Origin: Salinarchaeum sp. Harcht-Bsk1
GTDB taxonomy: Archaea; Halobacteriota; Halobacteria; Halobacteriales; Salinarchaeaceae
Assembly: GCF_000403645.1 (NCBI RefSeq)
Contig: NC_021313.1
Span: 2,313,014-2,377,013, forward strand
Direction of reading: 5' to 3'
Length of the DNA: 64,000 nt
Shown: positions 9,089-10,022 of the stretch, one piece after another
Layout of the letters: each line of letters begins with the position of its first letter
Position numbering within the stretch: the first letter of the stretch is position 1
The notes under the pieces: model-generated
The model's database searches: none
What the model saw: only the letters and a program-made list of their open reading frames with translations
Told to the model about the DNA's origin: nothing
Translations under genes and position numbers: made by a program

Positions 9089-9703
9089 TCACTCGGCCGT
9101 CGGTGGAACGCTTCGAACGAACCCGAGCGTCGCGGGATTGAACTCGTAGCTGGCGCCACACTCCGGACACTCCGCACGCAACAGCTTCCCGTGCTCGTAC
9201 TTCTGCCAGAGGTCCTTCTGGAGCTGGTCGATCTCCAGCTGGACCTCCGCGCGGCACTGGCCGTTGTTGCAGGGGAAGGCGACGTACCAGTTCGGGGAGG
9301 ACAGCGTGCCGATCGGCTCGAGTTCCGAACGAACCCTGCTGAGGAGGTTGAACACGGTGACCTCGGGGTTCTCCGCGTCGTACTGCACGCCGTCCGTCCC
9401 CTCGACGTAGCCCCGGAGGTAGGCGTCGTCCTCGACGATCGGGATGATCGGCAGCCCCTTCGCGACGGCGTAGCCGAGTTCCTGGTTCACCCAGTAGTCC
9501 GCCGCGCCCTCGTCGGTCAGGAGCGCGATCGCGAGGTCGCTGTTCCGGAGTTGCCCCTCGAGGTTCCGGCGCACGCGCCCGGGCTGGACCTCTTCGCCGG
9601 CGAGCGCGACCGTCAGCGGCAGGTTGCGAATCGACGAACAGAGGTTCTGTGCGACGTCGAGGTCGGCCGTCGCGTGCGAGACGAAGACGCGGGTTTCCGC
9701 CAT
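9089..9703 (-). CDS. TIR-domain protein with C-terminal zinc-ribbon-like module
   Basis: A 204-residue protein. The N-terminal 110 residues match the TIR fold: a beta-A strand with RVFVSHATAD and then a strand with LAIALLTDEG. A helix with YWVNQELGYA follows, then GLPIIPIVED. Glu75 in WVNQEL sits where catalytic NADase TIRs carry their glutamate. The C-terminal 60 residues hold CNNGQC and CPECG, an apparent zinc site around a charged helix. Prokaryotic TIRs often act in NAD-depleting defence, but no partner gene is adjacent, so that role is inference. The start MAETRVFVSH at 9703 fits the TIR strand. Confidence 0.75.
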   Translation of the reverse strand: MAETRVFVSHATADLDVAQNLCSSIRNLPLTVALAGEEVQPGRVRRNLEGQLRNSDLAIALLTDEGAADYWVNQELGYAVAKGLPIIPIVEDDAYLRGYVEGTDGVQYDAENPEVTVFNLLSRVRSELEPIGTLSSPNWYVAFPCNNGQCRAEVQLEIDQLQKDLWQKYEHGKLLRAECPECGASYEFNPATLGFVRSVPPTAE

Positions 9704-9806
9704 GCCCTGGCGTGCGAACCCGTCACACAAATTTCTTCCGTCGGTCCTCTGAAAGTTCCGCGTCGCTGTGGCCATCTCGGCCCGCTGCCCGGTGCCGTGG
9801 CGGGAC

Positions 9807-9836: not shown

Positions 9837-10022
9837 ATGGGCACGAGGCTCCGGACCCCCGAGGATCGGACCTGCGAGCGATGCGGGCGCGAGGAGACCT
9901 GGGACGAGGACGACGGCGTCTGGCGAATCGTTCGGGAGGACGGCGAGCGAAGGGTCGGCGATCCCTACTGCATCCACGAGTGGGACATCACCGGGGAGTT
10001 CTCGCCGATCGAAGAGTACTGA
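9837..10022 (+). CDS. Small HEWDITG-motif protein with CxxC
   Basis: A 61-residue protein with one CERCG knuckle (Cys13/Cys16) and a later Cys before a HEWDITGEFSPIEEY tail. The Cys-His arrangement could bind one zinc. The HEWDITG tail recurs in small haloarchaeal proteins as I recall, but no function is known to me. A clear TATA box 26 nt upstream supports expression. It is divergent from the TIR-domain gene, with starts 134 nt apart. Confidence 0.72.
   Translation: MGTRLRTPEDRTCERCGREETWDEDDGVWRIVREDGERRVGDPYCIHEWDITGEFSPIEEY

Follow-up and report, generated by a model that had tools for sequence, protein, structure and literature searches.

A TIR protein with a C-terminal four-cysteine module in haloarchaea and methanogens: a candidate one-gene NAD+-cleaving enzyme

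The 64,000-nucleotide stretch of Salinarchaeum sp. Harcht-Bsk1 DNA analysed here (the window; contig NC_021313.1, positions 2,313,014 to 2,377,013) encodes a protein of two parts, an N-terminal TIR domain and a C-terminal module with four cysteines (the Cys4 module), which we call the TIR-Cys4 protein (Table 1). The translated protein contains E75, C145-NNGQ-C150 and C179-PE-C182, and the cysteines are spaced C-x4-C-x28-C-x2-C over residues 145-182. The list of open reading frames (ORFs) lets the frame open earlier, at 9775; the ATG at 9703 was chosen because the proteins of relatives start there. A first-pass annotation, made from the letters of the window, had proposed a TIR half with a glutamate at the catalytic position followed by a C-terminal Cys4 module, and both parts of that description stand. 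Pfam TIR_2 scores 43.3 bits (cut-off 28, E 6.1e-11). ThsB_TIR also exceeds its cut-off (23.9 against 21.2 bits), whereas Nuc_deoxyrib_tr (24.0 bits, E 4.4e-5) falls under its cut-off of 28.8. The closest named relative, from S. laminariae R26 (L034), is 89% identical, with dN = 0.073 and dS = 0.55 (dN/dS ~0.13; NG86, whole gene), values which indicate that the TIR-Cys4 protein is kept by purifying selection.

Table 1. Features of the TIR-Cys4 locus, in window coordinates.
Feature	Position	Strand	Remarks
TIR-Cys4 protein gene	9089..9703	-	204 aa, stop codon counted in coordinates; translation
TIR domain, ~residues 1-128, Trp71 + Glu75 at the WxxxE position	9320..9703	-	Pfam TIR_2 on residues 6-93; AlphaFold model matches mostly residues 2-143
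Glu75 codon	9479..9481	-	Aligned to glutamate of AbTIR and BtpA/TcpB; 67/67 rows
Cys4 module, C-terminal, residues 133-204 (C145, C150, C179, C182)	9092..9307	-	Predicted beta2-alpha-beta3
AAATTT, possible TATA element (leaderless mRNA), 26-31 bases upstream of start codon	9729..9734	-	Weak, by eye, sequence only
HEWD protein	9837-10022	+	PF20576, E 1.5e-29; CERC motif; Pfam match also starts at 9837

Residues were counted over 67 rows: 48 from haloarchaea, made up of the 47 named loci plus the window, and 19 from methanogens, which come from 20 methanogen-side loci fetched from 42 genomes, the TIR-only L128 having been dropped. Glu75 is invariant on both sides (48/48 and 19/19), and C145, C150, C179 and C182 are each present in 66 of the 67 rows (47/48 haloarchaeal, 19/19 methanogen), the exception being L080, whose C-terminus is unaligned. 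A survey of TIR domains reports that a glutamate numbered E75 is kept in >70% of TIRs and matters for NAD+ hydrolase (NADase) activity in a subclass (PMC7075850). A PDB search with a profile of 17 relatives places bacterial TIR proteins on top [7uxr, 2e-5; 4c7m, 4.5e-5; 7uwg, 8e-5; 4lzp, 1e-4; 8g83 (‘NAD(+) hydrolase AbTIR’), 1.5e-4]. AbTIR, BtpA/TcpB and 7uxr each have a glutamate opposite Glu75 in the profile alignments, a residue which we take to be catalytic in AbTIR and BtpA/TcpB.

The AlphaFold model of the full protein has a mean predicted local distance difference test (pLDDT) score of 78.9, and its TIR half shows a TIR fold. With this fold and the invariant Glu75, neither of the observations that the first-pass annotation had named as refuting it was made. 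Foldseek identifies the SARM1 TIR domain as the best match (3e-6) and SPARTA TIR as the second. Superposition by VIA gives Z 13.2 for SPARTA TIR [root mean square deviation (r.m.s.d.) 3.6, 145 aligned], Z 12.0 for SARM1 TIR (r.m.s.d. 2.6, 123 aligned) and Z 11.6 for ThsB (r.m.s.d. 3.0, 114 aligned). TIR-1 and MyD88 are further matches of the TIR half in Foldseek and VIA, as is MAL in VIA. Structures of the deoxyribosyltransferase and DNPH1 type also superimpose (Z 11.2-12.2 by VIA), the best being a deoxyribosyltransferase (Z 12.2, r.m.s.d. 2.5, 118 aligned). The Cys4 half, modelled alone, folds with a pLDDT of 85.6 into the topology given in Table 1.

No Pfam zinc-ribbon profile rises over its cut-off for the window protein or its Cys4 module. 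The Cys4 modules resemble many zinc-ribbon families, each weakly. One of ten methanogen modules scanned (L129) passes PyrI_C (25.6 against 23.4 bits), although no single stretch of it is significant, and the Hsp33 zinc domain is the top non-repeat PDB match of both the haloarchaeal and the methanogen Cys4 profile, again weakly (E 0.29 and 0.0079). These weak matches suggest that the module is likely to hold a metal site, with a redox switch as one possibility. The module shares a Cys4 pattern with zinc-ribbon domains (PyrI_C, Zn_ribbon_3/4, CpXC, Hsp33 and others), but no single family fits its C-x4-C-x28-C-x2-C arrangement in haloarchaea and CxxC ... CxxC in methanogens. The methanogen Cys4 profile also matched TPR repeat proteins in the PDB; these matches were set aside as sums of many weak stretches. 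DUF6527 was rejected as a name for the module: it matches 7 of 16 members weakly, and a direct search found it in 0 of 59 genomes while its control matched Caulobacter. In a search of 242 haloarchaeal genomes, 57 have a Cys4 match, never at more than one place. Strong matches, all at the position of the TIR gene, account for 56 of them, so that no free-standing copy appears among these genomes bar the 57th match, which is weak and partial (E 0.0047).

The first-pass annotation had called for a search of archaeal genomes for this architecture, and that search yields a wide family with methanogens among its members. Within the class, a homologue is present in 94 of 391 genomes and absent from 297, so that the protein is no product of chance; among 117 genomes drawn as relatives, 17 encode the TIR-Cys4 protein, the source genome counted in. 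The distribution is densest in Natrialbaceae, where 105 of 125 genomes have the protein (97 of the 111 of good quality). All but two of the 105 copies align across at least 200 of the 204 positions; nine of these 103 have a stop codon inside the aligned stretch, as in L003, where the stop is the natural end. Each of the 105 genomes has one match, apart from G419, whose copy is split. Both Salinarchaeum genomes carry the two-part protein. The named scan comprises 47 haloarchaeal loci: Salinarchaeum (L034), a Halobacteriales metagenome-assembled genome (L035), Halorubellus (L072), Halostella (L079), 42 that bear the label Natrialbaceae in the tree, and Haloterrigena sp. H1 (L080). Two Natrialbaceae copies are damaged (G419, in two pieces; G415, a fragment only), and those of G736 (family f19, below) and L080 likewise fall among the split, fragmentary or C-terminally unaligned ones, which suggests that the gene can decay. 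Given its absence from 297 of 391 class genomes and from half of f19, the gene either can be lost or was never there.

A sample of 294 genomes from across the phylum gave a match in 54, of which 12 are haloarchaeal. In the 42 non-haloarchaeal genomes the alignment extends through the Cys4 module in 30 and is confined to the TIR part in 12. Joint alignments were made for two families from the methanogen side, where the protein is more divergent. In f33, 48 of 50 genomes match (43 full length, 3 partial, 2 TIR-only), including all 33 of good quality, 30 of them at full length. In f19, 54 of 111 genomes match (46 full length, 4 partial or split, 4 TIR-only), or 47 of the 85 good-quality ones. mcrA is present in 6/6 tested genomes of these two families and absent from two haloarchaea and from G438, which has a TIR-only match. 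Additional TIR-only or partial matches occur in some methanogens. TIR-only relatives in the phylum include those of G496, G608, G675 and G710 (all f19) and of the 12 phylum-sample genomes, and some of them lie inside longer open frames. The methanogen homologues exceed the TIR_2 cut-off in 4/4 scanned (40.0-51.4 bits), while two matches to ThsB_TIR (14.8 and 12.1 bits) and two to Nuc_deoxyrib_tr (18.6 and 14.4 bits) among methanogen proteins stay under the respective cut-offs.

Aligned with hhalign, the haloarchaeal and methanogen Cys4 modules match with E 5.9e-6 and probability 85, their cysteines in register. In a shuffle control with the Cys columns held fixed, 0 of 100 runs did as well (best 3.6e-4, median 0.093). 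Together these two results make a single origin of the two-part architecture most likely. In a tree of 47 haloarchaeal rows (the window and 46 named loci, L080 having been kept out) and 19 from methanogens, the two groups fall on either side of a fully supported, very long branch; a branch of that length does not separate common descent from an old transfer, and both fit the tree.

Six neighbours of the gene were scanned in the window: sucC and sucD, which lie downstream on the same strand, and on the other side the divergent HEWD gene, an oxidoreductase (both upstream), an HTH_10/BAT regulator and a DUF7344 protein. None is of a known defence type, as the first-pass annotation had noted. It had also pointed out the divergent HEWD gene. 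That gene exists, probably with its start codon at 9837, but a link to the TIR gene is not supported: 49 of 59 haloarchaea have a HEWD match, one per genome, only 9 of these have the TIR protein, and of 48 loci the two genes are close in the window and L034 only. As a near-universal haloarchaeal protein that adjoins the TIR gene in Salinarchaeum alone, HEWD is not its partner. sucCD, likewise adjacent only in the window and L034, was rejected as well.

In Natrialbaceae the gene keeps a stable place. It is preceded on its own strand by tpiA, which ends within ~1.4 kb, in 44 of the 47 named haloarchaeal loci (44 of the 46 outside Salinarchaeum), and ahead of tpiA there are usually helix-turn-helix, CDP-alcohol transferase, kinase and aminotransferase genes. 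Upstream tpiA is lacking in three loci, namely Salinarchaeum L034, N. pallidum L046 and, on a short contig piece, L070; in both Salinarchaeum genomes tpiA sits elsewhere. Of ten recurrent neighbour families at the 47 loci, eight are named by Pfam (housekeeping types or DUF3054) and two have no Pfam match. Neither these families nor the window neighbours supply a common partner gene, in keeping with the solitary gene first described. Many Natrialbaceae have a small protein of ~120-165 aa, without Pfam match, between tpiA and the TIR gene [L036, 9459-9956 (+) of that locus]. It was rejected as a partner, for it stays by tpiA when the TIR gene is ~1 kb off (L035, L079) and was not found in L043, L045, L048, L056, L065, L066 and L072 despite the presence of tpiA and the TIR gene; it is attached to tpiA, not to the TIR gene. 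On the methanogen side, the 20 loci have no widely shared neighbour.

A search of plasmids returned one 987-kb Natrinema replicon and one TIR-only match in Ca. Megaira; the methanogen protein as query gave no plasmid match. The Natrinema replicon (CP031304.1 of N. thermotolerans A29, L144), is filed as a plasmid, but with genes for DNA ligase, hisC, adenylate kinase and tpiA beside the TIR gene it resembles part of a chromosome or a chromid. Its annotated order is ligase, hypothetical, hisC, adenylate kinase, CDP-alcohol transferase, TIGR00270, tpiA, hypothetical, ‘TIR domain-containing protein’, a convergent J-domain protein and DUF3054; the protein has thus been annotated already, as a TIR protein only. 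Neither the window nor the methanogen protein matched any of 50,697 phage records, in pattern scans that can miss distant copies. Among viral contigs 17 stretches fitted the pattern of query A1 and none was confirmed, a type of scan which distant copies can escape, and the joint profile A3 gave three partial TIR matches and no full-length relative. The stable place in Natrialbaceae, the single copy and the lack of a full-length phage or viral relative argue against an ordinary mobile defence gene. The defence setting implied by the first-pass annotation is accordingly not favoured, the gene lying among housekeeping genes in Natrialbaceae with no phage or viral carrier found.

We put the chance at about one half that the TIR-Cys4 protein is a TIR enzyme which cleaves NAD+, is encoded by one gene fixed in the chromosome, and is controlled or aimed by the Cys4 module that it carries; the family looks like an old, mostly single-copy one of haloarchaea and methanogens. 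When TIR domains gather by the usual TIR-TIR contacts, the TIR half would use Glu75 to break the bond between nicotinamide and ribose in NAD+, or in a closely related molecule, yielding ADP-ribose or cyclic ADP-ribose. The fused, zinc-ribbon-like Cys4 module would act in cis as ThsA, Argonaute/APAZ or SAVED partners do elsewhere, holding the TIR domain off or positioning it, and might respond to nucleic acid, protein, metal or redox state. The architecture, the invariant Glu75 and nearly invariant cysteines, the purifying selection, the similarity of fold, the lack of a common linked partner and the stable locus in Natrialbaceae are observed; that the module binds zinc and controls the TIR domain, that the latter cleaves NAD+, and what the trigger is are inferred, with NAD+ cleavage as the leading candidate for the function of the TIR half.

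Several observations weigh against this reading. Trp71, four residues before Glu75, is present in 48/48 haloarchaeal and 0/19 methanogen rows, E37 in 47/48 and 0/19, and E37/E38 of the BB-loop region are replaced in methanogens; activity may therefore differ between the haloarchaeal and methanogen branches. The model has pLDDT <50 in the BB-loop region (residues 38-43) and the linker (130-138), and the TIR and deoxyribosyltransferase folds almost tie (Z 13.2 and 12.2). For the Cys4 model there is no Foldseek PDB match at E <= 0.001, and the top VIA Z is 3.1, which is no evidence of a new fold. An NADase fixed in the chromosome would need tight control. The annotation of the loci covered the recurrent families, so that a partner may exist which is unlinked or varies, and in 6 of the 20 methanogen-side loci, all f19, the TIR gene is followed on its own strand by a 145-aa ORF without Pfam match [L130, 8882-9319 (-) of that locus; L123, L125, L127, L134, L135].

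Among the alternatives, unlinked Thoeris-like signalling would have the TIR domain make cyclic ADP-ribose for an effector encoded elsewhere, with the Cys4 module sensing infection or stress. The ThsB_TIR score of the window protein, ThsB models among the weak PADLOC matches and the Z of 11.6 for the ThsB structure speak for it, but no ThsA-like protein was seen in the six window neighbours, the ten recurrent haloarchaeal families or the annotated Natrinema locus (other locus genes were unscanned), and a near-core gene with a stable place does not resemble mobile Thoeris. A search for a STALD/SLOG receptor found 0/125 in Natrialbaceae, although its control matched nowhere either. We consider this explanation unlikely. 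The same holds for a non-catalytic adaptor, in which the TIR domain is a protein-protein scaffold, the Cys4 module a second binding site and Glu75 kept for structure: the protein persists in methanogens after losing the WxxxE tryptophan and BB-loop residues, and the MAL and MyD88 TIR adaptors match the fold as well, yet Glu75 is constant in 67 rows and an NAD+ hydrolase TIR is among the PDB sequences closest to the profile.

Rather improbable is nucleotide housecleaning of the deoxyribosyltransferase/DNPH1 type, the cleavage of a nucleotide N-glycosidic bond with Glu75 as nucleophile. The Nuc_deoxyrib_tr E-value, the structural Z-scores and the chromosomal setting by tpiA and an adenylate-kinase-like gene are in accordance with it; the Pfam score is under its cut-off, however, and the aspartate six residues before the glutamate, as aligned in 7m5h and presumably functional in such enzymes, occurs in only 8/48 haloarchaeal and 0/19 methanogen rows. 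Least probable, with a very small chance, is a housekeeping RNA step in which the TIR domain removes nicotinamide (deNAMing) from 5'-NAD-capped RNA bound by the Cys4 module. Other TIRs, the archaeal TcpA among them, are reported to do this in vitro (PMC10937652), NAD-RNAs are present in Haloferax volcanii (PMC10663502), and an RNA-attracting surface charge is proposed as a possible determinant of deNAMing (PMC10937652). The window Cys4 module is less acidic than the neighbouring proteins (net charge -3, where theirs averages -8.0 per 68 residues), but this charge argument is weak, -3 being reached by 14% of control windows and by TIR residues 1-68, and the protein is missing from the 297 class genomes noted above.

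The NAD+-cleaving enzyme has a wider form, which we hold to be doubtful: an ancient, inherited, non-mobile TIR enzyme of haloarchaea and methanogens, working alone, in which the Cys4 module switches or aims NAD+ or NAD-RNA cleavage for a cellular rather than antiviral purpose. If that were true, TIR catalysis would be a core archaeal function. Prokaryotic TIRs are known mostly as patchy, mobile defence parts with dedicated sensors; the fused TIR and Cys4 parts, by contrast, occur once per genome in most Natrialbaceae, at a stable place there. If catalytic, the protein would be a minimal one-gene TIR switch and would suggest a housekeeping role of TIR chemistry in archaea. Among the papers listed from the open-licence PMC literature, subscription papers lying outside its scope, no title or opening of an abstract dealt with a TIR plus Cys4 or zinc-ribbon architecture in haloarchaea or methanogens, and none paired haloarchaea with Thoeris.

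Of the known systems, the bacterial NADase TIRs AbTIR and BtpA/TcpB share the glutamate that aligns with Glu75 and have, like the haloarchaeal proteins, a tryptophan at -4. The nucleoside 2'-deoxyribosyltransferases and DNPH1 have a similar fold and an aligned glutamate; here the aspartate at Glu-6 is not kept and the Pfam score stays below cut-off. TcpA and TcpO are archaeal TIR proteins described as having NADase activity (PMC10937652); their constructs, from Theionarchaea and Methanobrevibacter, are 327 and 341 aa long against 204 aa here. Thoeris ThsB resembles the window protein in fold and in its above-cut-off ThsB_TIR match and differs in that here no ThsA was found alongside, a Cys4 tail is present, and the gene has a stable place and is near-core in Natrialbaceae. 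In SPARTA TIR-APAZ and SARM1 (the best fold matches) and in TIR-SAVED and retron TIR (weak profile matches), too, a TIR domain goes with a sensor, either in one chain or as a separate partner. Those sensors are larger than the putative one of the TIR-Cys4 protein, which spans ~70 residues with four cysteines.
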